Shown here in pieces: positions 12,901-62,444 of a stretch of DNA of 64,000 bases. Origin of the DNA: Gymnopus androsaceus JB14 (Eukaryota > Basidiomycota > Agaricomycetes > Agaricales > Omphalotaceae). Numbering within the stretch: the stretch's first letter is position 1; the number at the start of each line of letters is the position of its first letter. Made by a program: the position numbers and the translations under genes. Below the pieces are notes generated by a model, which made no database searches, was not told the DNA's origin, and saw only the letters and a program-made list of their open reading frames with translations. The stretch is taken from the NCBI GenBank assembly GCA_009733575.1, contig ML769495.1, forward strand, positions 117,640 through 181,639. Direction: 5' to 3'.

Positions 12901-12987
12901 GGTGGATATGGGAATGCCCTCAGGCAGCTGCAGAAAATGGTCATGAAGCAATTGTCAATCTTCTCTTGGAAAAGGGGGCTGATGTGA
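9933..12987 (+). CDS. NLR-type NACHT-ankyrin protein (frameshifted near its 3' end)
   Basis: STAND-type NTPase of the fungal NLR class, thought to act in self/non-self recognition. The model is ATG 9933, then introns 9966-10089, ~10170-10229, 10400-10450, 10476-10534 and 11087-11144, all in phase. The N-terminus has FDHASNFEVNGGMF, a short motif typical of basidiomycete NLRs. The NACHT core has Walker A GKAGSGKT (restored only by splicing), Walker B GYVILDAMDEC, sensor-like HIAITSRDH, then a winged-helix region LQKLPKDLEETYTMALKKA. Ankyrin repeats of 33 residues (ADVNAQGGGYGNALQAA type) follow and are almost identical to one another. At about 12920 one T is missing (GCCCTCAG where all other units have GCCCTTCAG), so the frame leaves the repeat and stops at 12987. 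Three more repeats continue in another frame to 13295. Either the protein is shortened or this is a base-calling error. Confidence 0.85.
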
Positions 12988-13281
12988 ATGCTCAAGGGAG
13001 TGGATATGGGAATGCCCTTCAGGTAGCTGCAAGAAATGGTCATGAAGCAATTGTCAATCTTCTCTTGGAAAAGGGGGCTGATGTGAATGCTCAAGGGGGT
13101 GAATATAGGAATGCCCTTCAGGCAGCTGCAAGCAATGGTCATGAAGCAATCATCAAGCTTCTCTTGGAAAATAGGGCTGATGTGAATGCTCAAGGGGGTT
13201 TTTATGAGAATGCCCTTCAGGTAGCTGCAAGAAATGGTAATGAAGCAATTGCCAATCCTCTGTTGGAAGAGGAGGCTGATG
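11887..13281 (+). repeat. Tandem 99-bp ankyrin-coding repeat array, 14 units
   Basis: Fourteen head-to-tail units of 99 nt, each starting around GCTGATGTGAATGCTCAAGG. Units alternate mainly between GGYGN and GLYGN variants. DNA identity between units is very high and variation is concentrated at a few codons: the positions after NAQ, around NGHE and at LLLEK/LLLQN/LLLEN. That points to recent duplication or homogenising recombination rather than old, separately diverging repeats. Confidence 0.93.
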
Positions 13282-13295
13282 TGACAGTAACCTGA

Positions 13296-22884: not shown

Positions 22885-23862
22885 AATGACTCGACAAACA
22901 CGGTTGAAGAGGAAGACCTGAAGGGCGGTTGGTCCGACCCCAGTAAGGCTCAGCTGTACTCCTACACAGAGCCTTTCCGCCTGGAGTGCATCGCAAACAA
23001 CCTCGTTGCCTCCACTCTAAGGAATGGCATGAAGATGTTCATCCCTCTGGCATACTTTGTGTCTTGCTATGCCGACTCTACCTTGAAGCCCATCAAATCC
23101 GCAGACGCCAGCGCCATCATTCTCGATGGCTCTGGTGGCATCAAGGTGAAGTCGAGGTCGTTCACTGAAGTCCCACTGTCTCAGATAGACATGAACGATT
23201 TCAACAGCATCTCTCGCGGTCTTTCCAGATCTATCCGCCAGCACTTCATTCCCAAAGGAGCTTCCGCCCCAGGTCATAAGTTGGCCCTCGCTATCGCTGA
23301 CATGTTCCAGGCGATGTTCGATATGGTCAGAGACTGGTCTGACTTTGAACTCGGGTTCGACATTTACAAGATCTACATTGACAGAGCCTATCGCCAATGG
23401 TTCACCTTCCCTAATGACAACATCCGCATTGACCTTTTCCATTCAGGTCTCTTCCAAGAATCCCTCCTCTCCTGGCAGACGCTTAAGGTGAAGGAGGAAG
23501 AGGCTCGGCGGAAGAACCAGAAGCAGTCCAATACGTCCTCACAACCATCCTCCAGGGGTCAAGGAAACAGCCAGAAGCGCTCCTTTCTAGACGGAGAATC
23601 ATCCTCGAAAGAGAATTCGCGCACAGGTACCAAATGCAAGTGCTACCTCTGCAGTTCCTACGACCACAACTGGAACTTCCACAAGCCCAAATCCTCCGAT
23701 TTCCTGCAGAAGTCCGGTCGTCAGTATGTTGATGCAGACGGAAATGCTTATTGCGTCAGCTTCAACGGTCTTTCTGCCTGCACCAAACCGCATTGCACGT
23801 TCACCCACAAGTGCGGATTGTGTGGCTCCTCGGAACACGGATCCCAGGAGCATCCACGCTAA
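22885..23862 (+). CDS. Gag-like zinc-knuckle protein of the YR retrotransposon
   Basis: The frame opens with EEEDLKGGWSDPSKAQLYSY and runs to TAA 23860-23862. The N-terminal half is helical and capsid-like (FQAMFDMVRDWSDFELGFDI). The C-terminal part has a basic Ser/Gln-rich linker and then Cys/His clusters: KCKCYLCSSYDHNWNFH, CTKPHCTFTHKCGLCGSSEH. These suit nucleic-acid packaging. Upstream open frames from 21981 (Pro-rich, with RHRRVHQQPPSPRCPQQ) probably encode the Gag N-terminus but are separated by stops or unspliced introns at about 22490-22660 and 22870. The next protein starts in another frame overlapping this stop. Confidence 0.7.
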   Translation, partial: NDSTNTVEEEDLKGGWSDPSKAQLYSYTEPFRLECIANNLVASTLRNGMKMFIPLAYFVSCYADSTLKPIKSADASAIILDGSGGIKVKSRSFTEVPLSQIDMNDFNSISRGLSRSIRQHFIPKGASAPGHKLALAIADMFQAMFDMVRDWSDFELGFDIYKIYIDRAYRQWFTFPNDNIRIDLFHSGLFQESLLSWQTLKVKEEEARRKNQKQSNTSSQPSSRGQGNSQKRSFLDGESSSKENSRTGTKCKCYLCSSYDHNWNFHKPKSSDFLQKSGRQYVDADGNAYCVSFNGLSACTKPHCTFTHKCGLCGSSEHGSQEHPR

Positions 23863-25657
23863 TGACATTTGCTTCTCCACACGCCTCATACCGGGGGCGT
23901 GGAAGCAACTTCTGGAGGAATCCAACGCCCCTCAGAAGTTTGCTGGGATTCCGAAAGATCTCAAAGAGGGTTTCCGCATTGGCTTAGACAATTTCTCACT
24001 CGCATTGACTTACATCCCGCCTAATCACTACAAGACTGAACAACATGCTAATGTCATTCGTGCAAAATTTGCACAAGAAATGGAACTGGGAAGAATCTCG
24101 CACCCTTTTCATCCCGACGAGCTTCAGGCTCAGATCGGTAATTTCACAACAGCTCCCATGGCTGTCGTTGAACAACGACCTGGCAAATTTTGTATTGTAA
24201 TTGACCACTCCTTCCCGCGAAAAACCCTACCTCCAGACTTTCCATGCGCTACCCACTCTACTCCCATCGACAGTCACCCTCTCCCTCCAATTGAATTTGA
24301 CGTGTCGGAAATCTCCATCAATGCTCTTATAGATGCAAACGACTTCCCTTGCAATTGGGGATCCTTCTCTGAATGCTATCTGATGGTAGCCGAGGCCCCT
24401 CCAGGTATAATAACTCACTTGTATCCCCAACAGACATTTCTAATGTATCCATACATTAGATACTCAAGCTGCAATCTTCGACGTCGATGCAGCTTTTCGA
24501 AACATCCCCATTCACCCCTCCGCCCGTCGATTTGTCACACTTATGCTCGACGGTCTTATCCACCTCGACCTCATGCTCAATTTCGGAAAGAGACCTGCGC
24601 TGGGTATCTGGGGTCACATTGCAGATGCAATGGCCTGGATTCTCAAGTACAAAGGCATAGAGGCTCTACTAAAGTGGGTAGACAATTTTGTCTTCTTCCG
24701 GTACCCAAAGGGACAGAACAAAGACGGCTCCTTCACCTTTGCCTACGACAACTCCTTCATTTGGTCCACTGCCGCTATTCTAGGATGGCCATGGGCGCCG
24801 AGCAAATTTGTTCCTTTTGCTTCCTTCTTTAAGTACATCGGCTTCCTCTGGCACATCGAGGAAAAAATGGTACAACTTCCAGAGGAAAAGAAGGAGAAAT
24901 ACATTGCTCGGTTAGCCCCATGGGTCGCGAAGGAATGCCAGTTTGTGGACAAGGTAGAGGAGCTCATTGGGATGCTCAACCACATCGCGCTTCGTCGTTC
25001 CCACTGGGAAGACAGAGACTGATCAATCTCTTCAACTTTCGCTCTGGCTTCAAATCCGCCAAACGTTTCATTCCCCATTCCATCCCAGCAAAACTCCATG
25101 AAGACATCGAATGGTGGAACAACCTCCTGCACCAGCCGTTCATTGGAATGGAGATCATTAAACTCCCCAACCTCATTGACATCGACCTTTTTGTGGATGC
25201 CTCGACATCTTGGGGGATCGGGCTTATTCTGAACGGAAAATGGCTTGCATGGGAGTACAGGACGGGTTGGACAGATGCAGAGCACCATATAGGCTGGCGG
25301 GAAATGGTCGCAGTAGAACTCGCTCTACGGACCCTCATCTCATCAGGCTTTCGAACCGTCCGCGTACGCCTCCATTCTGACAACATCGGCGTTGTGGGAG
25401 CTCTCAAGAAGGGCAGCTCGAGGGGCTACGAAATCAATCTAATTCTTAGAAAGATTATTGAGCTTATGCAAGAGTTCAAAGTATGGATCGACTGCGTGTG
25501 GGTCTCCACACACAACAATCCAGCAGACACACCATTGAGAGGAGCATTTTCCCCGCGCAAACAGCTTCACGCTCACCCTCCCTCCGTACCGCGACACCTA
25601 AAACCGTATATTCACAATTCGATACAACCAAACAATCCACGTCTCAATTCTCATTAG
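23853..25657 (+). pseudogene. Reverse transcriptase-RNase H of the YR retrotransposon, disrupted
   Basis: The RT fingers include QRPGKFCIVIDHSFPR. Motif A is AIFDVDAAFRNIPIHP. It is reached only by skipping a 50-60-nt intron-like stretch at about 24400-24460 that contains stops. Motif C reads WVDNFVFF where the second catalytic Asp is expected (VDD), so the polymerase is probably inactive. A one-base shift near 25000 moves into the frame of LGRQRLINLFNFRSGFKS. The RNase H-like segment is LIDIDLFVDASTSWGIGLIL, WREMVAVELALRTL, HSDNIGVVGALKKG and STHNNPADTPLRG, with Asp, Glu, Asp and a final Asp in the expected order. It ends at about 25657. Confidence 0.8.
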
Positions 25658-26781
25658 ACAACTTCACCTACAGTAATATAATTACCATATACTAAATACG
25701 TGCTACCCACGATGTACGAATACTACGCATAAATTCACAAGAAGAACCCTCAGATCATGCCAAATACACGTAGGATGACCGAGTCAAGTAACAGTCACAG
25801 CCTGTGACTCTCTTTCACCCAAACCTTCACGTCTGGTAGCAACCCAACCAATTCTCACCTCTCTCTACGCCTCACACTCACTTCACCATGCCACCTTTCC
25901 AACACAAGTTCATCCCCGAGACCGACCAGAATAATTCCCAAGTCACACCTCCTCACCGAGTCCACTTTGACAACCACAATGCTCTCCCAGCCAATACAAC
26001 CACCACGCTAGACCAGAACGCGAGAAACACAATGGATGCAGCAGTCTCGGATAAGACCAGGCATAGGAAGTTACAATATGCAGCCGAATTCCTGACCTGG
26101 GCGGGCGGACAAGGTCTGACGAAAGAGGACGTTCTCCCTCCTTCAGAAGCCACGCTCTGCAACTTCACTGTGTCTTTCACTGGGAAGCTAGCTGGTGGAA
26201 CCGCTAAGGCCAAGGTGTCAGTGGTTAAGAGCTGGGTCCAGAGGAGAGGTCTCGCATGGGAAGGGGGAAACAACCTACGAAATGTCCTCAATGGCGTCGA
26301 ACGCAAAGCTCCTCCTTCATCCTTTCGCGATCAGAGGCCTCCCGTGAAGAAGGAGCACCTCAGTATCCTATTCGACGAATTGGACCTATCAGGCTCATGT
26401 GGCTTTGACCACGCCATGGCGGCAGTCAGCGTGGGCTGCTTCTACGGACAGCTCAGAGGCGGCGAGATCCTTCCACAGTCCTCCGACCCAGCTGATTTCA
26501 ATCCCTCCTCGCTCCCTACGGTCAAGGACCTGAAAGCTCCCAACGCGAATGGTGATAGGAAGCTCAGGCTCCCAAAAACCAAGACCAAGCAGTCCAGAGG
26601 CGAGGAAGTCGTCTACTCAGCTGGTTCATTAGCAGTATTAAAATAAACCCCGACAAGTTCTCGGAGGTGTATTTTAATACCACTGACAACTGGTAACCGG
26701 AAAATTGGAATTACTATAGGGAGTGAATGAGAGCCCGTGGGAAAAAATGAACACTTTTCTCATGCTCGTACAGGTCACCTG

Positions 26782-29121: not shown

Positions 29122-29517
29122 CATCAGCAAAAACCGTTTTGGGCCCAGGAGGATTTAAGGTCACCTAGTCCTCTTAGGTAACCTGAGGCATCCTAGTTGG
29201 CCCAGGAAAAAGGGTAAAACTTTGGACACCTCAGGTATCCTAGTCATCCTAGGTGTCCTGGGAGATTCTGGGATGTCCTGGGGCATCCTGGGGCATCCTG
29301 AGGCATCCTGGGATGGAACTTCTTATCCTAGGATGCCTCAGGATGCCCCAGGATGCCCCAGGACATCCCAGGATCTCCCAGGACACCTTGGATGACTAGG
29401 ATACCTGAGGTGTCCAAAGTTTTACCCTTTTTCCTGGGCCAACTAGGATGCCTCAGGTTGCCTAAGAGGACTAGGTGACCTTAGATCCTCCTGGGCCCAA
29501 AACAGTTTTTTCTGATG
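29122..29517. mobile_element. Foldback element, 396 bp, almost entirely inverted repeat
   Basis: Two arms of about 190 bp are near-perfect complements: CATCAGCAAAAACCGTTTTG at the left against CATCAGAAAAAACTGTTTTG on the other strand. They continue through GGGCCCAGGAGGAT and TTTACCCTTTTTCCTGG to a centre near 29315-29325. Inside each arm GGCATCCTGGGGCATCCTG-like units repeat every 11-12 bp. As RNA this would be a very long hairpin and a potential source of small RNAs. There is no coding sequence. Confidence 0.85.
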
Positions 29518-47847: not shown

Positions 47848-48244
47848 TCCACCTGATATTACCCAATGATGCTAAGTATACATATGATTGATCGGAGTGT
47901 CTTTGCTATGTAAACATAGCGTTAAGGGCTAGATCGTACATTTAACGAAATACACCAAATGTCTACTAATTATAATAGCCAATAAACTGAGGCCCAGGGG
48001 TTAAGGAGACTGGAGGTGCGGGTAGGTGCAGGTATGCCCGAGTCCTCTGAGGGCGCATGTCACATTCCTTCCCGCTCCCGAAGGCGGGGTAGGTGCGGGT
48101 ATGCCCGAGTCCTCTGAGGGCGCATGTCACATGCTCGGATATTCCTTCCCGCTCCCGAAGGCGGCTGATGTGACAGTTGAGCTCATTGTCCGGAGACGAT
48201 GAGCTCGTATATACAGCTATATAATACATAAAAAATCACTAAAA
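47848..48244 (+). repeat. Left terminal inverted repeat of the KDZ element
   Basis: It matches the complement of 62108-62444 along its whole length: AATGATGCTAAGTATACAT, GTCTACTAATTATAATAGCC, GCCCAGGGGTTAAGGAGACT, TTCCTTCCCGCTCCCGAAGG and GATGAGCTCGTATATACAGC. The left copy is longer because a ~73-bp segment (GGGTATGCCCGAGTCCTCTG to CCCGAAGGCGG) is present twice in tandem at 48029-48172. Several differences from the right copy are C-to-T or G-to-A at CpG. Confidence 0.92.
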
Positions 48245-48377
48245 TATGCACAAAAAAGCTATAGATCAGAGCTACAGTGAAGTATCGATACTGTAAATGT
48301 TGTAGTCCCTCTATAGCGAAATGTAGGGTGAAATGTAGGGTAAACAAAGTGAGCAAGGTTGAACGACGAACGATTCA

Positions 48378-51050
48378 TCAATCAGCTTCGCTATCGCTAT
48401 CGCTGTCATCATCGTTACTGCCAAAAAGGAGATCCGCACATTCAAGATGCTTTCCACCTTCAAGGCTCCCGGCACTCCCTCCTATGTCGTCCCTGTCCAG
48501 CAAGCCCCCATCATCGTCGTAGTCGTCATCGTCGTTGTCATCGTCGCAGTCGTTGTCGAAGCGGGAAGGCTGGTCGCCACCACCAAGGAGCAGGTCTTCC
48601 GTGTCCTCTTCATCGTCTACTTGTAGTTTCATTGCTATCTTCTTCAAGCTCTTCCTCCCGCTACTCTTCTGCTTCTCCTTTCCCTTGGACGGACCAGGTT
48701 TTCCTACAGAGGCGCTGATGACTTGCTTGACAACTTTTTTGGCGGTGCGCCCCTTCTTCTTAGGCCTTGGTTCCTCCTCCTCTTCATCGTCTTCCTCCAC
48801 AACTTTCTTCCGCTTAGTTGACGTCCTATGTACCCCTCCCTTATCCGATCGCTCCTTCCTCTGCTTCCCCTGGCGTCGATCATCTGCCGTTACTTGCTCA
48901 TGGGCCGCTACTTGCTTATTGCTCATCTTGTACCAAAACGCCTCCCCTGTCCTCCAAGCCTCGTGAACAGCCTTCAGATCATCAAGCTCCTCTATAGCAG
49001 AGGGAGCTTGCATCTCAACTCCTTTGGGCCACCCGCTGATGTTGACTTTGAGGGCTGAGACAATGTCGACATCGAAGTTCCGGTAGTTCATTTTGATGGT
49101 CTCTTTTCCTGTAATTTGGCCTTTACCAAGTCAGAGGATTCCGAAGGTTCAATGTAGAGGAAAAACTTACGGAGTCCCTCCACGATATAATGACGAGTTG
49201 CTTTCACCATCTCTGTCTTGTAAAGAGGCCGGGTACCCACTGTAAAAAGAAGCTTTGATACTCTGAAAGGTAGATATAGGAAACACGTACTGTGGTTGTA
49301 AGAAGTTACAAAGCTTTCGAAGAGGCATAGAATCTCCCAAACACTCTTGCGAAAGTACTTTGTGAAAAAGTCCGCGACTGGCCCGCCGCCAATAATCGTG
49401 GGTTGAATGGATGAGTCGTAAGCTCCTCTACAGAATATACCAAAGCCACAGAGCGTGCTTCTGTCTCTGAGCTCATGGAACTGCAATACGCTCATTAGAT
49501 CGAGACAACACAGCTGAGAAATCTACGTACCTCCTCTCGGAATCGTTTCAAAAGCTTTCCCGAACGTATCGCCACCGACTTGTTGGAGATACGAGCTACG
49601 GACCTCTTATCTTCTCGTGCGTCTTCCAGCTCCTCCCGGAACACCTTCATCTTCTCTTTGTTACCAAGGCAAGCCATTAGAGTCTTGTCTGCCTTCAGCC
49701 TCCGTTTGACTTCGCCAATTTTATGCCGTGAGCCTTTCGGTAGCCCTAAAGCATGGAGTTGAACGTTAACTCAGGGTGAGAAACAAACAGAAAAGCTTAC
49801 CGTCGTTCAACTCTTTCGATTTTGCGTGCACCAAGGCATCCATGTCCGTCATTTCCCTTTTCTTTCGCAAACGAGGTGATGATCCTAGCAACTTTTTCAA
49901 CCTCTCAACCTTATAGTCATGCTTGGCTGCAATAGCTGCCAGAGCTTTTTCCGTCATTTCGCGCCATTCATCCAGGTCCTTCATAATTTCCTTCCGCTTC
50001 AAAGCATTGGCCTGCCTAGCCAAGTTCCCTTCTTGGCGACCACATCCAGCCTTGACTGATGATGAATCTTTTTGGGGCCGCCGCTCTTCATCTTCCCAGT
50101 CACTCTCGTTATCCTCAGGCAGCATCCGCGCCATGATTAAGGTGACCAGCTCCCGTTTCCCCAGCACCAGTATCGGTAGCGCTTACACCAGCAGCAGCAG
50201 CAGCGGAGAAAATAGGCTGACCCGGCAACGGAGGAACACCGTTTTCTGGAGTATGGGACCGAGGCGTATGAGTTGGGGAAAGTGGTGCTCGAACGGTGGC
50301 AGGTGCCGATGAACATGGGATTTGCTGATAGAGACGTAGGGGCTGTGAGAAGCTGGTGCTGGAGATGCTGTAGATCTAGACAAGTTGGGACTTGCCGATC
50401 GAGCTGTAGAAGTGAGAGAAACTGGCCCAGGGAATGCCGTAGATGTAGGACAAACGGGGGCCCAAGATTGGGCCAATTCCAGGGGTGCAGGTGCTCCAAC
50501 AGGCTCTGGATCTTCTCCAAGAGCCAGGACCTTCCAATGCAGCAGAGCTACTTTGCTTGGCCTGGCTGTTGTTCATCATGGAGGCCAGGGACATGCCCCG
50601 AGAAGACATCTGAAAGCTGGGCCTCTGTGAAATAGGCTGAGATGAAGGCGGAAGAGCTTCGTGTGGAGTAGGAGTTCCATTTCTACTTCCGGGAAGAGTC
50701 GACGTGTCAACGGGGTAACCAACTTGGGGTGTATCCCATGTGAGAATCACAGGAGCAGGGGCTACGACAGGAGGACAGGCTATGGCAGGAGGACGAGCTA
50801 CGGCAGGAGGACGAGCATGCTCAAAATCCTGCTGTGCATTTGAACGATTCTGTATAGTCTGTCTGTTAGACGACGCGTTCACAACAAAAGGAGATGCGTG
50901 ACCACCAGAAAGCAACGCAGCACCTCTCCGGGCAGGAAAAGGTGAGTGAGTGCCGTCATTCGCAGCAAATTGGCTGGGATTTCCAGTAGGTAGATGGTGT
51001 ATGGCTTGCTGCCGAGGATGAGTTATAGGATGCTGCTTAGACAGAGCGGA
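48378..51050 (-). pseudogene. Companion gene of the KDZ element, 5'-truncated copy
   Basis: Function unknown. This copy retains the 3' part. Conserved blocks are DMDALVHAKSKEL, MACLGNKEKMKVFREELEDA, FHELRDRSTLCGFGIFCRGA, SVWEILCLFESFVTSYNH, EMVKATRHYIVEGLRKFFLY and MNYRNFDVDIVSALKVNISG with WPKGVEMQAPSAIEEL. The C-terminal ~200 residues carry basic clusters (PKKKGRTAKK) and a run of Asp/Glu/Ser to the stop at 48378. That layout suggests a nuclear, chromatin- or DNA-associated protein, but this is inference. The 5' end is lost at 51049, where retrotransposon sequence begins. A one-base difference from the other copy near 50310 shifts the frame, so this copy is broken internally too. Confidence 0.65.
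48984..51049. repeat. 2.05-kb direct repeat, left copy (partner 52666-54709)
   Basis: Nearly identical to 52666-54709 in the same orientation, covering the middle of the companion gene. The partner is 22 bases shorter, mainly through a missing GCTATGGCAGGAGGACGA-type unit. Each copy is joined at one side to different foreign sequence. Confidence 0.93.
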
Positions 51051-51772
51051 AAAAAAGAGAGAGGAATAATCCTTCGTTTAACCGGAGCCCAGCCAACTTT
51101 GACTCCTCCGTCAAACTTCAGGTCTGCGGAAACCTCAGGTATAGGAGGCGGAATAGCGCCGTTACTAGCCATGGTAAGATTTCAAGACGTAAGGATGAGG
51201 TGATGTAGATTTTCGAGTAGTGAGTCTAGACTTCTTGTGTCGTTTCTTCGTAGATAAATTCAGCGGCGGACGGGGCCCATAACCTGTTGAACGAAGTAAG
51301 TAAAATCCTCAGGACGACACACGAATAAAGGTGTCGAAAGACTCGTATATTTAGAAATGATAACTACCTGTTGAACGAAGTAAGTAAAATCTAAGTTTAA
51401 GTAATTAGCTTCGTATGCAGACAGGAAGTATTCGAATAAGCTTACCCTCAGGACGACACACGAACAAAGGTGTCGAAAGACTGAGGGTAGAGGATAGCTA
51501 AAGTCTGTATATAGGTAAAAAGTCCGTAACGACCGATCTTGCGCAGCAAGTCGGTCACCGTAATATGTAACTGAGAGGAAATTTGAATAAGGAGCGTTGA
51601 GAAGTTTAAACAGGTAAAACGTGTATGGAAAGTTGAAACTAAGAAACTAATGAAAAATGGAATCAGATAGAAAGGAAAAACTGAACTTGGTATATGGAAA
51701 CCGGAGGTTGGGATTTCCGGTGGGGCTCGACCAATATCTTACGCTTTGACCGACCCGTCACGTATCTTCAAC
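51050..51772 (-). mobile_element. LTR-retrotransposon fragment (gag start and upstream region)
   Basis: On the minus strand an ATG at 51172 opens MASNGAIPPPIPEVSADLKF, then DGGVKVGW. This resembles the start of Ty1/copia-type Gag proteins. It soon runs into the junction at 51049. To the right, two motifs are each repeated: ACCTGTTGAACGAAGTAAGT (51280, 51366) and CTCAGGACGACACACGAA (51309, 51449). This suggests LTR or leader sequence with an internal duplication. The fragment ends at the N gap. Confidence 0.5.
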
Positions 51773-51797
51773 NNNNNNNNNNNNNNNNNNNNNNNNN
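51773..51797. other. Assembly gap (25 N)
   Basis: A run of 25 N, a conventional placeholder for unknown length. Sequence on its two sides is unrelated. Confidence 1.
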
Positions 51798-52665
51798 TGA
51801 TACGGCTGGATTTTTTCGGCTACAGGCTTTAGAACTGCGCAAGAACCAATAATCCTAGGTTCTGTTTAGTAACAAAACACGGGTCTCAATAAGAGAATTA
51901 TACGTAGGCCCGATGCTGATAGTTAAAATCTACCGAGGACCTATGTTCTACCCAAGAGGTTGCAGAGTAACCGGTATCGCGCAATTGGTACCATTACTTA
52001 ACTTGTGAATGCGCCCTCAATCCAAAGTCCTATGCGCGTATGGTGTAGCAAGTCAAGCTTGTTGGGATACAGTTGCTGACCGAGGCCCAGATAAACGAGC
52101 CACTACCAGTTATACTAGGCAGGTCATCAAAGAGTATACCCAAGGGGATCGAAGTCTTAACGAGGCATCGGCTTCCGCGATACAGGCTCACCGAGGAGTC
52201 TAAACGACACTCAAGTTTTATTAAACGAAGCAAGTGGACCGGGAGATGGGAAGTACCCTAACAGGTGCCCTCAAAGTTGACGCCTTGCTGGAAGCGCCCA
52301 GGCATATAGCCGCGGCAGTCCAACGCGGCCACATGATCCACTTGCCTGGTAGCTACTTCTAGAAACACGGAAGGACCAGGAGTATTTCCTATCCGAGCCT
52401 CAGCGTTTTACCGAGATCCATATGCTACCAGGCATCTAGACTCGAGACCACGCGGAACTAAGAGATAATACCAGTCTCCCATTGGCAAGGAAAAACATAG
52501 AAATTACCTCCGAGGGCTGTTCTGCTAAAGGAACTGGCGAGCCTTGTAAAAAGGCAAATGACTCGATTCGATTCGGACCAAAATCCCAAAAGTCGACCCA
52601 ATCGAGGAAGACAAACGAACGCAGCCAGGAAAACGTCGCCCCAGGCAAAAATCTCTCTTCACAAA
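51798..52665. mobile_element. Unidentified foreign insert fragment right of the gap
   Basis: Has no similarity by eye to the left-hand fragment or to the KDZ element. A plus-strand open stretch ending at the junction (52482-52665) is Lys/Ser/Glu-rich (KNIEITSEGCSAKGTGEPCK) and could be Gag-like. The assignment to a retrotransposon is inferred from its place and from the matching situation across the gap. Confidence 0.35.
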
Positions 52666-54709
52666 AAGCTCCTCTATAGCAGAGGGAGCTTGCATCTCAA
52701 CTCCTTTGGGCCACCCGCTGATGTTGACTTTGAGGGCTGAGACAATGTCGACATTGAAGTTCCGGTAGTTCATTTTGATGGTCTCTTTTCCTGTAATTTG
52801 GCCTTTACCAAGTCAGAGGATTCCGAAGGTTCAATGTAGAGGAAAAACTTACGGAGTCCCTCCACGATATAATGACGAGTTGCTTTCACCATCTCTGTCT
52901 TGTAAAGAGGCTGGGTACCCACTGTAAAAAGAAGCTTTGATACTCTGAAAGGTAGATATAGGAAACACGTACTGTGGTTGTAAGAAGTTACAAAGCTTTT
53001 GAAGAGGCATAGAATCTCCCAAACACTCTTGCGAAAGTACTTTGTGAAAAAGTCCGCGACTGGCCCGCCGCCAATAATCGTGGGTTGAATGGATGAGTCG
53101 TAAGCTCCTCTACAGAATATACCAAAGCCACAGAGCGTGCTTCTGTCTCTGAGCTCATGGAACTGCAATACGCTCATTAGATCGAGACAACACAGCTGAG
53201 AAATCTACGTACCTCCTCTCAGAATCGTTTCAAAAGCTTTCCCAAACGTATTGCCACCGACTTGTTGGAGATACGAGCTACGGACCTCTTATCTTCTCGT
53301 GCGTCTTCCAGCTCCTCCCGGAACACCTTCATCTTCTCTTTGTTACCAAGGCAAGCCATTAGAGTCTTGTCTGCCTTCAGCCTCCATTTGACTTCGCCAA
53401 TTTTATGCCGTGAGCCTTTCGGTAGCCCTAAAGCATGGAGTTGAACGTTAACTCAGGGTGAGAAACAAACAGAAAAGCTTACCGTCGTTCAACTCTTTCG
53501 ATTTTGCGTGCACCAAGGCATCCATGTCCGTCATTTCCCTTTTCTTTCGCAAACGAGGCGATGATCCTAGCAACTTTTTCAACCTCTCAACCTTATAGTC
53601 ATGCTTGGCTGCAATAGCTGCCAGAGCTTTTTCCGTCATTTCGCGCCATTCATCCAGGTCCTTCATAATTTCCTTCCGCTTCAAAGCATTGGCCTGCCTA
53701 GCCAAGTTCCCTTCTTGGCGACCACGTCTAGCCTTGACTGATGATGAATCTTTTTGGGGCCACCGCTCTTCATCTTCCCAGTCACTCTCGTTATCCTCAG
53801 CAGCATCCGCGCCGTGATTAAGGCGACCAGCTCCCGTTTCCCCAGCACCAGTATCGGTAGCGCTTACACCAGCAGCAGCAGCAGCAGAGAAAATAGGCTG
53901 ACCTGGCAATGGAGGAACACTGTTTTCTGGAGTATGGGACCGAGGCGTATGAGTTGGGGAAAGTGGTGCTCAAACGGTGGCAGGTGCCGATGAAATGGGA
54001 TTTGCTGATAGAGACGTAGGGCTGTGAGAAGCTGGTGCTGGAGATGCTGTAGATCTAGACAAGTTGGGACTTGCCGATCGAGCTGTAGGAGTGAGAGAAA
54101 CTGGCCCAGGGAATGCCGTAGATGTAGACAAACGGGGGCCCAAGATTGGGCCAATTCCAGGGGATGCAGGTGCTCCAACAGGCTCTGGATCTTCTCCAAG
54201 AGCAGGACCTTCCAATGCAGCAGAGCTACTTTGCTTGGCCTGGCTGTTGTTCATCATGGAGGCCAGGGACATGCCCCGAGAAGACATCTGAAAGCTGGGC
54301 CTCTGTGAAATAGGCTGAGATGAAGGCGGAAGAGCTTCGTGTGGAGTAGGAGTTCCATTTCTACTTCCGGGAAGAGTCGACGTGTCAACGGGGTAACCAA
54401 CTTGGGGTGTATCCCATGTGAGAATCACAGGAGCAGGGGCTACGACAGGAGGACAGGCTACGGCAGGAGGACGAGCATGCTCAAAATCCTGCTGTGCATT
54501 TGAACGATTCTGTATAGTCTGTCTGTTAGACGACGCGTTCGCAACAAAAGGAGATGCGTGACCGCCAGAAAGCAACGCAGCACCTCTCCGGGCAGGAAAA
54601 GGTGAGTGAGTGCCGTCATTCGCAGCAAATTGGCTGGGATTTCCAGTAGGTAGATGGTGTATGGCTTGCTGCCGAGGATGAGTTATAGGATGCTGCTTAG
54701 ACAGAGCGG
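52666..54709. repeat. 2.05-kb direct repeat, right copy
   Basis: Partner of 48984-51049. Differences seen by eye are mostly transitions at CpG sites, for example 49073 C to 52754 T, 49230 C to 52912 T, 49318 C to 53000 T, 49539 G to 53221 A and 49570 C to 53252 T. A few go the other way. Confidence 0.93.
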
Positions 54710-54998
54710 GTTGAGGCATCGACTGAGAATCAAACGGAGGTGCGTGATGTCTGGAGTCAAAATGTTGCTGTACCCGCTGCTGCTGCTGATATTGTTGTTG
54801 CATATAGAGATGAGACCTGTAGTCTTGCTGAGAATGAACATATGGGGGTGAATGGGAAGGCGGAAAGGTAGAAGGCGGAAAGGTAGATTGCTGAGAGCTA
54901 TGGTGATTTTGCTGGTATGGACCATGATCTTGGTCAGACGGCCAGTAGTTCAGGCCGGTATGAGGATTATAAGACATACTCGACACAAATGAGCCCAA
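52666..54998 (-). pseudogene. Companion gene of the KDZ element, 3'-truncated copy
   Basis: This copy retains the 5' part missing from the other one. The start at 54998 reads MGSFVSSMSYNPHTGLNYW. It continues through a Gln/Pro/Ser-rich disordered region (QQQYQQQQRVQQHF, PPSQPISQRPSFQ-like) of about 340 residues to a TGA at 53970-53972. The other copy has CGA at the same place, so the stop is a CpG transition. Beyond it the same frame continues with PGQPIFSAAAAAGVSATDTG and the conserved middle. It is cut off after APSAIEEL at 52666, where foreign sequence begins. Together the two copies describe one full-length gene of about 900-1000 residues. Confidence 0.65.
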
Positions 54999-55191
54999 AA
55001 AACGGACTTGTAGAAATCAACAAACCAATTGACGCCCAGGCGCTCAAGTCATTGGACTTGCATTGGACCGTTTGTTTGATTTTCACCACCATCTTGCCTT
55101 CTACTACTACGATCATACCTGATACCTCAAAGTAGACGTCTTCAATACTTACTTCTCCTAGAGACTTACTCTTCCATTGACGCCACAGGTC
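54999..55191. promoter_or_regulatory. Shared divergent promoter region, companion gene and hybrid-binding gene
   Basis: Only about 190 bp separate the two oppositely directed start codons. No clear TATA box is seen. The spacing implies shared control of both cargo genes. Confidence 0.35.
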
Positions 55192-56370
55192 ATGTCTGGT
55201 AGGCTATCCAATCGCTTCAACAACTGTATGCTAATACTTTGTGTAGAACGTTCGGTTTCTCCAGTGAAAATTGCAAGGGCAGCAAGCGTTCTCGAGGATA
55301 CCAAAGGTAATGCTTAGTTAAACCTCAGCTATATCTCAACAGGCGTATGCTTAACGGCTTCTTTTAACAGAGCGCTCACCAGTGAAGAATTCCCGAGTAG
55401 CAGCTTTGGATAATATGGTGAAGGACACTGAAGGTACGTTTTGGCCAGATAACAGTCGAAACTCTACCGACCCTCATCAATGCAGATCTTGTGGACTTTG
55501 AAGAAGACCTCCAGTTTGCCGAACTGGATCTAGCTCTAGCTCAGGCCACCTATAGCCAAGCCTCTCAACGCCTGGTCACAAAGCTCGATCATGCTGAAGC
55601 CAACCTTGGTAAGTAAAGTCCAGCTTTTTTATACCTCTAATAACCTGGATATGGCTCTAGCTCAGCTCCGAGCTACAGTCTCGCCGCCTGGCAGCCCAAG
55701 CCGCCGACAGAACGTTTCCAGCCAGGCTCTGGCCGCTACTCCCATGACTCCTACCCACAAGCATGCTGGACTACGTTTCCAATCTCCCGCTGCTTCTGAC
55801 AAAGTCTCAGGCCAAGTTCCCTTTGTTCAAGGCGCCTTGTACACCGCTGTCAAACCAGAGCCTGATGTCAAAGCTCCTAACACTCCAGCAGCCCAATCTT
55901 CGTTCAGGAAGAAGGTAGGAAAGCTGTATGTAGTATACTTCAGGATAAACGGTCAGCAGGGTGTCTTTGAATCCTGGAACGAGGCCGAGAAGCTTTGTCG
56001 TGGCTATCCCGACGCGATTCAGCAAAGCTTCAACGATCACGAGCTCGGTAGGAGGGCTTTCAACGATTGGAATCAATACCGAACGTCGGAGGCATTGATG
56101 GAGAGTAGCGCTCAAGAGAAATTTATAGTAGTTGTTGGTAAACAGCCTGGTGTATACTCTCGCAAGTACGTCGTCTTTTCATGCATTCTTTGCTGCTTGC
56201 TAAGGTTTATGCTTCTAACAAACCACAGAGGCCTTGCTAAATTTGGCCTAGGATGGCGTGGAGGACAAGTTGCTCGATTTGACAGCAGTTGGGACAATGC
56301 TCATGAACTTTTTGAACAGTTCACTGAAGCAGGCACTGTCAGGCAACGTTCGCGCTGGGTACACAATTAA
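55192..56370 (+). CDS. KDZ-element protein with RNase H1-type hybrid-binding domain
   Basis: Splicing from ATG 55192 (a 7-base first exon, donor at 55199) gives MSERSVSPVKIARAASVLED, with SPVK-type motifs repeated in the next exon (ERSPVKNSRVAAL). A short helix (DFEEDLQFAELDLALAQATY) follows, then a disordered Pro/Ser region. The core is KLYVVYFRINGQQGVFESWN, then EAEKLCRGYPDAIQQSF and HELGRRAFNDW. This is the RNase H1 N-terminal / caulimovirus-viroplasmin fold that binds RNA-DNA hybrids or dsRNA. A second, weaker unit (KFIVVVGKQPGVYSR, then GWRGGQVARFDSSWDNAHEL) follows after the last intron. There is no RNase H catalytic domain. SPVK motifs are DNA minor-groove or CDK-site-like. All exons join in phase and no break was found. 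Confidence 0.7.
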
Positions 56371-57129
56371 GTTGATGGGTTTCATCAATCTGTATGGCAT
56401 CTTTTTTTCATATCTTTTTTAGATCTTTTCGCTGCTTTGAACCACTCTGCTTTGCTTTGTTTGTATTCCTCCGGCCTGCTTATGCTTGTATATACTGAAT
56501 ATCACGATCGTCAATGCTGTCTAACTGTTGAACTATACATTTAAGAGAAATGCGAACTACTACAGTAAGTTATACAATTAAGAGAGCCTGAAACGCTAGA
56601 GTAAGATTAAATACTTGATTAATAATTGCAAGTGCGGCGCAGCACTTTGCCATTGCTTCTCTGCATTTCTCTCTATTACAGATGAATATAAGATATATAA
56701 CGGTACGATAGAACTTTTATCCAAGCATAGAACAGGGACTACAAAAAAACGGACCATACTTACAGCTAAATCAATTCAAATTGACAATGGTAGTTGAAAC
56801 ATAGAAAGACGCAAAAGATAGGTCAGGTTCATATACGAATTAACAACTAAGGTTCATCCAACTCCAAGTAGTTCATTTACTGTTACTTATGCGGCATGGT
56901 AGTTCTATCACGGTTCATACATCTATGTAGGCTATGTACGTGCCAGATATTGGCCTGGATATAAATTACGGACTGAGCTTAAGGTATGCATTTCGAAGCT
57001 TTCAGAACCTTAAAGGTTGGTTCACGAATCTTTCAAGTTCAAGGTCAACAGAAGTGTACTATATACGTTGGCAACGATACTGGTTACAAATGTCAATGAA
57101 GGCTACTACGGTGCTAAGTTATAAATGAA
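56371..57129. other. Intergenic within the KDZ element
   Basis: AT-rich, between the converging 3' ends of the hybrid-binding gene and the TET/JBP gene. Short open frames only; no coding motifs. Confidence 0.5.
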
Positions 57130-58818
57130 CTAATCTCCCCTCATCATTTCCAAGCCCACTTTCCACATATTCTTCTTGTATAGCCTCCAGCCTGCGAGCT
57201 GCTGTGCGGACGCTCTTGCCATGAACTCTTTGTCAGACATGTACCCGTTATGATACCAGCAAAGAAGTCCCGCTGCAGTAAAGAATGCTGCAGAGTGTCT
57301 ACGTTCGCCTGGCCCGATAGGAATGTTGGAATGAGTAATAAGGGCAGAGGGGAGGATGATAACACAGCCGGGTGGAAACTCAAGGACAAGGCCAAGGTCC
57401 CAGAGTATAAGATGCCCTCCACGTGTGTAGTTGTAAGGTCCAAAAGCACCTACCGCACAACCAGTGAAGAACCCGTTAAGAAAGTCGTTGTGAGGTTTGG
57501 TGCTAGCTTTGTCCATGTTCATGTGAAACGCGGCGTAGCAGCAACCTGGAAAGATTCGTTGGAGCTCGTCATCTGCATTGGTGATTTTGTCGAGAGCGTT
57601 GGTCAGAAGAGCATGAACCTTTGGGAAGTAGGCCAAGAGCAAGCCTATATAGTCGTTAACCAGAGCATAAGCTAGAGACAGAACTGAGCTTACGATCACA
57701 GTATCTAGCAAGTTTGTGCATCTCCGGGTTATCCAAAACCTTCCGGAAGACGGCGGTGTTATGGCTGCTCATAGCAAAATTTCCTGGTTCAGTACGCCCG
57801 TTTCCAAAACTGACCCCTCCTCCAAAGCTAGCGTACTTTCCATGGCGGCCGTTTTGGTATTTCGCAGGGAGGTTGAACTCTTGATGTGCCGATATAAACA
57901 GTTGGTTGAGGCCGTTGAGCTCCAAAGCAGCACCCATCACAACCAGGCGCGTATCATCTATAGCTGTTATCAAATGAGTCTCCCTAAGAAAAATTATCAT
58001 CAAGGTCAAGGAGGATAAACAAAGGACTTACCTCCCATCCCATTGAATGAGAGCCAAGCCCGCATGGGAGAGTGCATCTGGGGTCGACATCACTTTGATG
58101 CTGTACTCTGCAGCAAAAACACGGGGCCCAGACCAACCCGTCAGATGAAACGGCTTGAAGTCAACCAAGAGCGCGTCGTCGACCGTCACCTTGGCCTTCT
58201 TAACAGCAACGATCTTCAAATTAGTCGCGTTGTTCTGCTGCTTCTGCCATCATTCCTGTCGCCTTCTTTCATGCTTAATATGCGTAGCCTTGCTCTTTCG
58301 TCGAGTCTCAGCATCAACAGACATATCAGGGGTGTAAAGGATGGGGGTAGGGCGAGGGATGGGTCGACGATGAAGTAGAGAGGAAAGTAAGTTAAACCGA
58401 GCAGGTCCAGTGTTCCGTACATAAGGTCGAGCACGAGGGGCAGTTTCTTCTACCTCGTCAACATCTTCCTGTGCCGTGGCTTCTTCTTGGCGACTGTGTC
58501 CCGAGATCATGAGCTGCATAGTGTTGATACCATCCAGGATGATGTCATTGCCACGGTGAGCAAACGGGTTGAATTCGCATTGGCTACACGTAGTGCGGAA
58601 GCCTAGAGTAATGTTAGTAAAGTTTCTGTATGTTATGATGAAAGGCAAGAAGAAAAACTCTCAGCTTTGCAGCTTCGGGGACGCTCAGCAACCCTCAGCT
58701 TCCCCAAGATCGGGGATGCCTGTCGATTCTTTGCGTAGAGGAAGAGAGGCTAAATAGGCTTACCAGGAAGAACGTTTTCAAGGTCAATTCCGGCCGCGTT
58801 CCTTGAGCGTTTGGTCAT
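57130..58818 (-). pseudogene. TET/JBP-family 2-oxoglutarate/Fe(II) dioxygenase with in-frame stop
   Basis: TET/JBP enzymes oxidise 5-methylcytosine (or thymine, in JBP) in DNA using Fe(II) and 2-oxoglutarate. The start at 58818 reads MTKRSRNAAGIDLENVLPG. Exons then include TTCSQCEFNPFAHRGNDIIL, the basic VAVKKAKVTVDDALLVDFKP with FHLTGWSGPRVFAAEYS, and the FGGGVSFGNGRTEPGNFA block. The catalytic core has the metal pair in STKPHNDFLNGFF (H-x-D). Then come RGGHLILWDLGLVLEFPPG, the distal His in ALITHSNIPI and the 2-oxoglutarate Arg in GPGERRHSAAFF. All catalytic positions are present. A TGA at 58250-58252 interrupts the frame between HERRRQE and WQKQQNN, where a TGG would restore it. Introns are short GT-AG. 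It is divergent from the transposase next to it. Confidence 0.85.
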
Positions 58819-58915
58819 GGTGGCGGTTGGCTGAGATAAACGGACTTGGTGAGTTTTATGTTTTAACACGTGCGGGTGCCAAAGCGTCTTTAGCGCTCAG
58901 TCTCGTCCAAAGTCC
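58819..58915. promoter_or_regulatory. Divergent promoter region between TET/JBP and KDZ genes
   Basis: About 100 bp lie between the TET/JBP start codon and the first in-frame codon proposed for the transposase, so one compact region must drive both. The true transposase start may be a few dozen bases away. Confidence 0.4.
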
Positions 58916-61900
58916 ATGGGCCCTCTACCAAAAACAAAGCTCCATGCAGGTCTACGAAAAATTTACGTGCAATCTGAGGTGCTACGCGCTGACTCTAACC
59001 GGCGTTCTTCTATGAAAGCTTTGACTCCTGGCGGCATGCGACGCCTGAAGGACAAGGCCCACTCTGAAACAGTTCGCGTGTTGAATGTTGAGCCCATGGA
59101 GGAAGAAGATAGCTCAGCGCCAGTAGGCTACATTTCGTCATCTTTCAATATGCCGTTGCCAGACTTTGGACGCGCGGAAGACTGGGTCGACGACGATGAT
59201 GCTTTGCATAACGAGGCAAAGCAAGTATATGAAGATCTATTGCAAGGAATTAGGAAAATGTAAGTAGTTTTAGACCTTATGGCTTCCATCTCATGCTGAA
59301 CTTGGATTACAGGCATAGAATTGATGGTAGAACTCGACGCGACGCTCTGGAGAAGTTGTACCAATATTGGCTGCCTCAATTTGACGAAATGGCGGAAGCA
59401 TTCAAGGATTGGGAGCACAACGAGTCGATTGGGTACGAGATGCCGCCAGTCTTGGACGGTTGCTACTCTCTGTCAGTGAAGACCATCAATGTTTACGGTA
59501 ATGATCTCTTCCATGAAAGGTATTGAGATTACTGACTTTCTACAGGTACCGCTATAAGATCAGTTCCTTTACCTGGAGACGTGAACCAGTCGTCAAGCAT
59601 GGTCCGCGCTGGGATATTTCCCTGCTCTCCTATCACACACAGCAGTGGAATCACCACCCGAACTCTTCAGCTCTTTCACAACCTCTTCACTCGATGTCCT
59701 CGGTTGTCTATCCAGCCGTTCGTTAAAGCACTGTGCGACCTTCACGGTGTTCCTTTCAGACCGTACCTCATGGTTCAGCTCCGTCAGGCGTATGACGCTT
59801 ACCTTGAGGTCAAGAGGCGTGTCAGAAAGCAGGTCATGGAGACTCTGGGGAGAGGCTCACCAGACTGGAGAATAACACATGCTTGCGTGCCCTGCCAGTT
59901 CCGACTTGAGGAAGACAAAGAGCTGGATATCAGGATGATGGTCGCATGTGATGGTAACGACTCTTTGAAGCGAGATGAAAGAGTCGATGAAGGTGCAGAT
60001 GAGACGGACATGGATCGTTTGAAAGAACGAAAGGATCCTCGGGAGGGCGGGGGTGATTACTTTCTTTCAGAAGCTGAGGTAGACCAATGGGAGGAAGAGA
60101 ACTGGGGGGAAATACCGAACCTGGTGGAAGAGTCTATGGAACAGGAGCATGATAGGTTGAAGGAATGGGTATGGGTCGGAGGGAAAATGCGAAGACAAAT
60201 GGCACAACGCCAAAGATGCCAACACTGCTCGAAGCGTGGGCCGAGTTCAGGGAGACCGGCCTCTTTCTGCTCATCTGTAGGCATGGACATGTCCTTCAGA
60301 TGTGTGATATGATTCGTTCCGGTGAAAAGTGAGCTCTTTCTTCTTCTTTTAGCCTACTCTAATGTTCTTATTATAGAGCTAAATACGCTCTGGCTGTTCT
60401 CCATGCGTTCATGAGCGCAGAGAAAAGGCAGCGTGAGGCTAACGGAGAGGGGTCGCCTAAAGGAGGCCTCTGTGTTGCCTACGACATTGTTTGCACCCAC
60501 AGCAAGACCATCGCTCGAAGTCCTCTCGCTACGCTTGCAAAGTGGTGTCGGTATATCGCTGCACTGATGATGATGCATGGGTACAGTCATGAACGTGCCT
60601 GCCAGCTTGCTTTCATGCTGCTCTACATCGCGGGTGCAGGTCTTGAGGATTTAGAGACCTGCGAGCGATACTTCTCCAAATCCAACGCATTGGCCACCGT
60701 TACTCGCCATGCTAGTATCTTTCACCGGCTGTCAAGCCATTGCCGAGTATGCCTACCATACTGACACCTTTGAAACCTACGGCAACCTCAGTAAATTTAT
60801 CTACAACAACTACAAGCAGGCTCTCAAGATTCTTGCGACGCAGGATGCTCTGGTTACACAGATGAAGAAGGCCAACCTCACTACTCCCGCTGTATTCTTG
60901 GATTGGTTGAAAGAGGAGGCAGAGTATCTGCAGAACCTTTCAACCAAACCGCCGAAAGAAACGCTGGAGATGGAATATTATCGGAAGCTATCGGACTTGT
61001 ACCAGGCCACAGCAATCCGAAAGGCAACCAAGGATAGCTGGGTTTCTTACGTTCGGCTGGAAGATGGTGGTGTAGATAATACCAGAGCTTTAGAGCGTGC
61101 GGCATGACACGCGAGGGAGAACGAGCGGAAGTTGACCGAGGAAGTTCAAGGGCTGGAAAACAAGCTGGACATCCGTATCCGGTGGGCTGAAGGAGGGAAG
61201 GAATGGAAGGCAGCAGAGGATTTGGTATCTGGAGCAAAGTATAGGAGGGCGCTGGATAAGCTGGAAGGGTTGCTGGTGAGACGGATGTTTGAAATGGGAC
61301 GCTTGAACATTGCCGGTACTGGTAAGCTATGTTTTTAACCCTCTAAAGCAGCTTCTTAGAACCCCACTACAGGCTATAAACTTCGGAAACATCTGGCAAA
61401 GGCACTAAAGACACGAAGCCAAAGCATTCGGAAGGCAATTGATCAATATAACGAGACAGCAAAGAAGATGAACCCACCTCGAGCTACAGTGAACTGGGAC
61501 GAGGTCGTAAACTACAGCTTCCTGTCGGAATTCGACATCCTCCAGGATACGCGAGAAGACGATTCGCGAGAAAGCGTGGGCAATGCCTGGTAACAGGGTC
61601 CTCCTGAACCAGTTCTTCAAGATAGTCCATGCAGGAGATGAGCTCCACCGCCTCCACCAAGAGATACAGCGGCTTGTCACTTTCATGAAGGTGGAACGGG
61701 AGGAGCTCATGGAGAAGGAGCGGGACTTGTGGGAGCTTGACCCAGGGCTAGCTTTATAGGTTCAGAGGTTCCGCCTGGAACGAGGTCGGTTCAACTCTCA
61801 GCATCGCAAGCGTCTTCTCTCCATCTTGCAGCTCAAAGGTTTCGAGCGAGCGAATGAGAAGTACTTCTCTCCCGGTATGCCAGTCGAACGTCGTCGGAAA

Positions 61901-62062
61901 GCTCAGGAAGATGAGATGGATACCGGAGTCCCAACTGAGAAGGAAGATGAGGAGCAGGAGGACGAGCAGAGTGAAGATGAGGAAGTATGGATAGATGAGG
62001 AAGAAGAGGAGCTGTTTGAAGCGGATGCATTGCTTGATTTGGCTGTGGATCAGACGGTCTGA
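58916..62062 (+). pseudogene. KDZ-family transposase, degenerate
   Basis: The N-terminal exons contain MKALTPGGMRRLKDKAHSET, NMPLPDFGRAEDWVDDDDAL and LYQYWLPQFDEMAEAFKDWE. A Cys/His-type region follows (VKALCDLHGVPFRPYLMVQL, HACVPCQF). The catalytic parts are MVACDGNDSLKR (first Asp), GLCVAYDIVCTHSKTIARSP (second Asp) and GAGLEDLETCERYFSKSNAL (Glu), in the D-D-E order of KDZ (Kyakuja-Dileera-Zisupton) transposases. Between the first and second, two shifts at about 60170-60230 move through CEDKWHNAKDANT into EFRETGLFLLICRHGHVL. Another break follows GYSHERAC... near 60715. A TGA occurs after RALERAA (about 61106) and further stops near 61590 and 61757. The tail is Glu-rich. This copy cannot make an intact transposase. 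Confidence 0.85.
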
Positions 62063-62107
62063 ATGTGTTCTATATGTTCCCTTCACTGTAGCTCTCTGTA
62101 GCATTTT

Positions 62108-62444
62108 TTTTGCATTTTTTAGTGATTTTTATGTATTATATAGCTGCATATACGAGCTCATCGTCTCCGACAATGAGCTCAACTGTCACATCAGCCGCCT
62201 TCGGGAGCGGGAAGGAATATCCGAGCAAGTGACATGCGCCCTCGGAGGACTCGGGCATACCCGCACCTACCCGCACCTCCAGTCTCCTTAACCCCTGGGC
62301 CTCAGTTTATTGGCTATTATAATTAGTAGACATTTGGTGTATTTCGTTAAATGTACGATCTAGCCCTTAACGCTATGTTTACATAGCAAAGACACTCCGA
62401 TCAATCGTATGTATACTTAGCATCATTGGGTAATATCAGGTGGA
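62108..62444 (-). repeat. Right terminal inverted repeat of the KDZ element
   Basis: Inverted partner of 47848-48244, lacking the tandem duplication present on the left. At several sites it keeps CG where the left copy has TG or CA (for example ATACGATTGATCGG on the complement versus ATATGATTGATCGG). Confidence 0.92.

Follow-up and report, generated by a model that had tools for sequence, protein, structure and literature searches.

What does a transposon keep beside its transposase, and can it carry its own means of editing the methylation of its DNA? This question is raised by a stretch of 64,000 nucleotides from Gymnopus androsaceus JB14 (the window; contig C113, positions 117640-181639), in which one pair of long terminal inverted repeats (TIRs) encloses genes for a KDZ transposase, a TET/JBP-fold dioxygenase (TET), a protein with an RNA:DNA-hybrid-binding domain (HBD), and a further protein labelled G4. 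We searched the assembly of this fungus (83.3 Mb in 934 contigs, each denoted by C and a number) for relatives. Window positions 47850-62442 are probably a decayed member of a KDZ DNA transposon family with four genes. The copy itself is dead, a pseudo-element, because its KDZ gene has four frame changes and two stops, its TET gene has one stop, and its G4 gene is split by a duplication. Judged from their substitutions, the four genes have been passed on as a set, and purifying selection of similar strength has acted on each of them between elements. Positions, strands, and contents of the element are as follows.

47850..48257, plus strand: left TIR, starting CACCTG, from inverted-repeat comparison with the boundary taken from relatives
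48020-48132: tandem duplication with a 67-bp period inside the left TIR
48378..51077, minus strand: G4 copy 1, without its 5' end, C-terminal acidic tail kept
48984..51049, no strand: first arm of an internal tandem duplication, 97.8% identical to the second arm
52525..54977, minus strand: G4 copy 2, with start codon and disordered N-terminal part, one stop in the family frame
52666..54709, no strand: second arm of the duplication, 97.8% identical to the first arm
55192..56370, plus strand: HBD gene (also labelled 'CAULI'), six modelled exons, 299 aa, no stop or frame change
57130..58818, minus strand: TET/JBP-fold dioxygenase gene, from homologs, gene model, and predicted fold; modelled exons 58818-58764, 58602-58032, 57983-57694, and 57644-57130; in-frame TGA at 58252-58250
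58916..62062, plus strand: KDZ transposase pseudogene, from a PF18758 match, first-exon joins made by eye, and spliced alignment to a related transposase; modelled introns 59260-59312, 59498-59545, 60329-60376, and 61322-61372; frame changes fitted in that alignment near 60175, 60245, 60732, and 61561; in-frame stops 61105-61107 and 61757-61759
62104..62442, minus strand: right TIR, finishing CAGGTG, from inverted-repeat comparison and relatives

Ends and transposase of the element

The long inverted ends described in an earlier note, made from the letters of this DNA, proved real. They extend over ~400 bp in the form 5'-CACCTG..CAGGTG-3' and consist of blocks that are 93-100% alike (the longest 219 nt at 98%, the inner ones 104, 44, 27, and 24 nt), far above chance. 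Homology of the termini to one end of a copy on C464 and to short relatives on C104, C146, C308, C319, and C408 starts at CACCTG, with none outside. Because the relatives match only from CACCTG inwards, the true ends are 47850 and 62442, each lying two bases further in than the coordinates first given (47848 and 62444). The window element shows no target-site duplication (TSD), the sole common flanking 6-mer lying at offsets that do not fit one. Perfect 8-bp TSDs flank three of the seven elements examined, window included (CACCCGGC at C406, GCTGGATG at C614, and AGCGAATT at C106); none was found at the element ends of C428, and in the end comparison of relatives the left end of C65 is without its terminal bases. 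TIRs enclose the detected genes at C406 (9.0 kb), C428 (15.7 kb), C65 (11.1 kb), C614 (9.5 kb), and C106 (11.0 kb), and range from ~110 to 400 bp across the window element and these relatives. Candidate TIRs at C544 were rejected, their matches being simple repeats.

The C464 stretch (C464:3188-6455) holds one end of another copy of the window element, the last 248 bp being 98.8% identical; its TIR is interrupted by a ~1-kb insertion with inverted-looking ends of its own. The five short relatives are non-autonomous and have ~105 bp of termini in common; those seen at both ends span ~1.4-2.1 kb.

The assignment of the transposase to KDZ stood up in a profile search, which matched PF18758 at 60363-60764 with an E value of 3.3e-29 (102.6 bits; cut-off 26.6). 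In two siblings, the first half of the domain scored 1.9e-17 and 3.6e-18. The KDZ motifs named before (ACDGN, AYDIVC, and GLEDLETCER) are all present in the middle part of the gene, though ACDGN lies in a different open frame from the other two, separated from them by two frame changes and an intron. Scores for the N-terminal CxC cysteine clusters stayed under cut-off throughout: of three sibling stretches, two matched CxC1 (E 0.0037 and 0.015), and the window matched CxC3 at 0.018 and CxC1 at 0.026.

Recurrence and co-inheritance of the four genes

In the window, KDZ and TET are divergent, HBD and G4 are divergent, and TET and HBD converge between the two pairs. The idea that two further cargo genes belong with the transposase and dioxygenase in one module is borne out by other elements, where the same order recurs with TIRs outside. 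Genome-wide we counted at least 96 TET, 139 KDZ, 32 HBD, and 45 G4 loci, match counts being lower bounds, and clustered them at 12 kb. Second-exon rows of a single locus were dropped beforehand (99 TET rows became 96, and 139 of 161 KDZ matches were kept, among the matches listed), as was a short match to G4 at C346:7772-7876. Apart from the window, 11 loci were read as long DNA stretches; the remaining clusters rest on match positions. All four genes alternate in orientation, as in the window, at 7 of these 11 loci (C65, C106, C145, C346, C406, C428, and C585). As to the others, C544 gave no KDZ match in the stretch read, the G4 match of C225 lies outside its stretch, and the C803 locus starts at a contig end, beside TET.

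Clusters that contain HBD comprise 15 with all four genes, 5 with TET-HBD-G4, 4 with KDZ-HBD-G4, 4 with KDZ-TET-HBD, 2 with TET-HBD, and 2 with HBD-G4. Those that do not comprise 31 KDZ-TET, 2 TET-G4, 2 KDZ-TET-G4, and 1 KDZ-G4, and single-gene clusters number 12 for G4, 35 for TET, 80 for KDZ, and 0 for HBD. Orientation is nearly invariant: TET and HBD converge in 26 of 26 cases (24 within 2.7 kb), HBD and G4 diverge in 26 of 26, and KDZ and TET diverge in 19 of 21 within clusters that hold HBD or G4. HBD stands beside 21 of the 27 TET loci that most resemble the window TET versus 5 of the 69 other TET loci. The four-gene element is one lineage among several KDZ-TET lineages, and weaker detection at greater divergence may contribute to this distribution.

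Selection was estimated as the ratio of nonsynonymous to synonymous substitution rates (dN/dS) in the nine closest pairs per gene. Where identity is 68% or more and dS exceeds 0.8, as between old elements, the ratio is 0.08-0.13 for G4, 0.09-0.12 for HBD, 0.07-0.10 for TET, and 0.07-0.11 for KDZ (0.07-0.13 over all four genes); recent pairs gave 0.30-0.73, as expected of decaying copies. Matrices of protein distances, one for each of the four genes, are strongly correlated over 8 to 11 loci (Mantel r 0.94-0.98), and in each of the six comparisons 0 of 5000 permutations reached a value as high. Mainly because of these low ratios and correlated divergences, HBD and G4 look like working parts of the transposon lineage, not passengers.

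Several observations weigh against this picture of a coherent and functioning four-gene element. HBD was not detected at 70 of the 96 TET loci; at these 70, KDZ within 6 kb is absent in 42, divergent in 10, tandem in 14, and convergent in 4. C614 is without TET, and C225 has none between KDZ and HBD save 13-residue scraps. C106 and C544, C406 and C428, and C803 and C227 look like close duplicates or alleles, and because several loci appear allelic or recently duplicated the 26 concordant arrangements are not 26 independent events; ~10 separate lineages are left among the loci read, window included, after close pairs are collapsed. In distant pairs, where dS is near saturation, dN/dS is 0.22 for G4, 0.59 for HBD, 0.25-0.26 for TET, and 0.15-0.18 for KDZ. 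At least one in-frame stop interrupts 8 of the 9 aligned KDZ copies, and the ninth, at C225, has one fitted frame change; because all nine are damaged in one of these ways, no element can be pointed to as working.

Dioxygenase, CpG record, and possible roles of HBD and G4

The complete TET/JBP site reported earlier, in a gene divergent from KDZ, is there in the letters (PHND, THSN, and GERR, which supply all four residues of the HxD...H and 2-oxoglutarate arginine site), but the gene is interrupted by its TGA. H93 and D95 are invariant in an alignment of 36 TET sequences, and HxD..H is kept in 9 of 10 copies of this genome, with D in nine and N in one; a PE-type TET, with HxE for HxD, was ruled out on these counts. 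Placement in a family, which a profile search had achieved for the transposase, held for the dioxygenase in part: its predicted structure finds TET/JBP structures as its top matches and so is modelled in the TET/JBP fold, though Tet_JBP (PF12851) scores fall under the cut-off. Among the counterpoints, PF12851 gave no match on the window TET exon alone and reached at best 25.4 bits against the cut-off of 34.9 in relatives, and the 2-oxoglutarate arginine is missing in 5 of the 10 own-genome copies. PF12851 appears at E<=0.1 in 6 of 19 alignment members and at E<=0.01 in 4 of 36, and genome-wide it gave one sub-threshold match, outside the 96 TET loci. A profile of the 36 sequences run against PDB chains recovered neither CcTET (E<=10) nor NgTET1, and PDB sequence searches with TET returned chance matches (T antigen and others). 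In metagenome data, a relative of TET (P0002, 95% identity) and one of HBD (P0082, 78%) each lie on a contig of length 3071, probably one and the same.

Recent copies carry a strong record of CpG transitions. These account for 191 of 266 differences between C106 and C544, 290 of 451 between C406 and C428, and 42 of 69 between C227 and C803, and the two arms of the window duplication differ at 21 aligned positions, all transitions, 19 of them at CpG. For the arms and the first two pairs, rates are 0.10-0.31 at CpG positions versus 0.001-0.014 for non-CpG transitions. The short relatives, which have no TET, show a weaker enrichment (C408/C104, 30 of 177 CpG positions versus 25 of 2045 others; C319/C104, 6 of 94 versus 6 of 1201). 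Older KDZ pairs (~67-78% identity) show little CpG excess, and C76/C225 and C368/C538, with one difference each, are uninformative. The prevalence of CpG transitions in recent copies and their enrichment in the short relatives make it likely that repeats of this kind are methylated at CpG. The CpG-transition record of recent TET-carrying pairs shows no protection by TET; reading this damage as a sign of TET failure is weakened by its presence in the short relatives. Between C406 and C428, 738 of 739 sites agree in one flank, against 451 differences in 8356 sites within the elements, a contrast that could reflect allelic copies, gene conversion, or element-targeted mutation.

The C614 element (C614:13241-22752) bears on the need for TET, and its testimony is adverse: its outer TIR bases are identical at 112 of 112 positions, its TSD is perfect, and it has no TET. 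TET may therefore be dispensable in cis. The C614 transposase has two stops, so this element may have been moved in trans. The claim that the window copy edits methylation or escapes silencing is not supported as it stands, on three grounds: the copy is a pseudo-element, recent copies are heavily damaged by CpG transitions, and C614 is without TET.

In a functional family member, the KDZ transposase would cut and paste the element at its TIRs, and the TET-fold enzyme would oxidize methylated bases on element DNA following host CpG methylation. The HBD protein, through an RNA:DNA-hybrid- or dsRNA-binding domain, and G4, with its basic stretch and charged tail, might bind DNA or RNA in the nucleus as helpers, sustaining transcription of the element or aiding transposition. 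For HBD and G4 these roles are guessed from domains and composition, and the evolutionary data support a lineage that would need both. An extended version, a self-contained anti-silencing transposon in which a divergent, possibly fourth-type TET is guided or assisted by the HBD protein and its nuclear partner G4, with hybrids from the element's own transcription marking cytosines for oxidation, we consider unlikely.

The strongest competing view is that the dioxygenase does not erase 5-methylcytosine for the element at all, acting on another substrate (N6-methyladenine, RNA, or protein) or persisting as a decaying or regulatory leftover. The sub-threshold Tet_JBP scores, the failure of the 36-sequence profile to find CcTET, and a structural identity to CcTET of 13% are consistent with it, as are the TET-free C614, the lost arginine, and the CpG transitions, which prevail where TET-carrying elements have recently diverged and are in excess in TET-less short relatives too. 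We regard this as a possible outcome, though a doubtful one.

The first reading had overlooked the doubling of G4, along with the interruptions of KDZ and TET and the missing TSD of the window. A 3.68-kb internal tandem duplication doubles the gene and leaves both copies incomplete, the 3' end of copy 2 being replaced past the duplication junction. That this ~3.7-kb duplication is an assembly error is rather unlikely: such an error would suit near-identical arms in a draft of 934 contigs, but the arms differ by transitions, nearly all at CpG, in the mutation pattern of other copies and unlike a random misassembly. The arms may also be alleles joined in tandem.

The HBD protein has two conserved domains, the first being the N-terminal domain of RNase H1 (Cauli_VI). 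Public annotation includes the gene (P0081, BT96DRAFT_940855; 302 aa with PF01693, different only near the start), and PF01693 was found in 7 of 7 members scanned. Against the PDB, the protein matched 1qhk (E 2e-05) and 3bsu (0.045), amid chance matches to designed PPR chains at 5e-4; its second domain had no PDB match. No RNase H catalytic family appeared in a Pfam scan of the full-length window protein and six partial members. A second HBD-like repeat suspected by eye was rejected on profile comparison (E 0.085, probability 0.7%). In G4, an N-terminal part rich in S, T, A, P, G, and N is joined by a basic stretch, ~300 aa that form a conserved core, and a tail of charged residues. A Pfam scan of 22 G4 members gave matches taken as chance (best E 0.0042, in one member; the widest, Pup, in 5 members with a best of 0.014), and no PDB match fell under 0.35.

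DNA transposons commonly capture cargo, and HBD and G4 could likewise be host genes or fragments picked up as passengers, the way many gene-capturing transposons acquire theirs. A passenger might look like G4, which matches no known domain and in 12 clusters has no partner gene detected within 12 kb. No solitary HBD locus exists, however, gene order and orientation are fixed, HBD and G4 have dN/dS as low as that of the transposase in the same divergence range, and divergences of the genes increase in step over 8 to 11 loci, all of which make this account highly improbable. Scarcely credible, finally, and largely refuted is a chance cluster of separate mobile or host units with TIRs from something nested around them, which a genome so rich in KDZ loci and the missing window TSD might suggest: TIRs of differing sequence in relatives, three of them with perfect 8-bp TSDs, enclose the same genes in constant orientation and mostly constant spacing.

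Elsewhere in the window, an ankyrin-like open reading frame (ORF; by eye) at 11131-13284 on the plus strand contains a 99-bp tandem array (14.2 copies, 89% match) and sits downstream of an NTPase-like ORF; it looks like what we take to be a fast-evolving NLR-like gene. Overlapping plus-strand ORFs at 23029-26646 resemble a retroelement, DIRS-like by eye, with RNase H-like and tyrosine-recombinase-like parts. A 193-nt inverted repeat (29122-29517; 96% complementary, 10-nt loop) has CATAG-rich flanks that are found again near 7380, 13688, and 16532.

Comparison with known systems

A linkage of TET/JBP genes to KDZ transposases in Basidiomycota was reportedly described by Iyer et al. in PNAS in 2014. 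The CpG-transition record suggests that the host methylates these elements despite TET, and the idea of escape is testable by comparing TET-plus with TET-less copies. How TET enzymes encoded by transposons reach their targets could be studied with HBD and G4 as concrete partners.

The window dioxygenase shares the TET/JBP fold and the HxD...H...R site with CcTET of Coprinopsis cinerea, to which AG-type TETs are close, at the low identity given above, and fold and site with NgTET1 of Naegleria at 18-21% identity, each in structural alignment. With RNase H1 (PF01693; 1qhk, 3bsu) the HBD protein has the N-terminal hybrid-binding domain in common, but no RNase H domain was detected in it by the Pfam scan.

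As described in the main-text parts of Kojima 2025 (PMC12730594), TET-carrying Kyakuja and Zisupton DNA transposons of Agaricomycetes are already published, Kyakuja ends are CA..TG, two Laccaria Kyakuja families have 7-bp TSDs and no TIRs, and Dileera, like Zisupton, makes 8-bp TSDs. Compared with those Laccaria families, the elements here share the CA..TG ends but have TIRs of ~110-400 bp and, in relatives, 8-bp TSDs; an assignment to Kyakuja from the ends was dropped for these reasons. The Zisupton combination of 8-bp TSD and TIRs is present in relatives, the window itself being without a TSD. The same parts of that paper treat the elements as transposase plus dioxygenase and mention no HBD or G4 gene, and a four-gene design with HBD was not found in the open-licence literature, a search that did not take in the 2014 article. 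The published elements combine a KDZ transposase and a TET/JBP dioxygenase in one transposon, as here, and that pairing is known; what looks new is a four-gene design that is conserved and includes HBD, a co-evolving unit through which the lineage appears to keep two further proteins, G4 and the HBD protein with its RNA:DNA-hybrid-binding domain.

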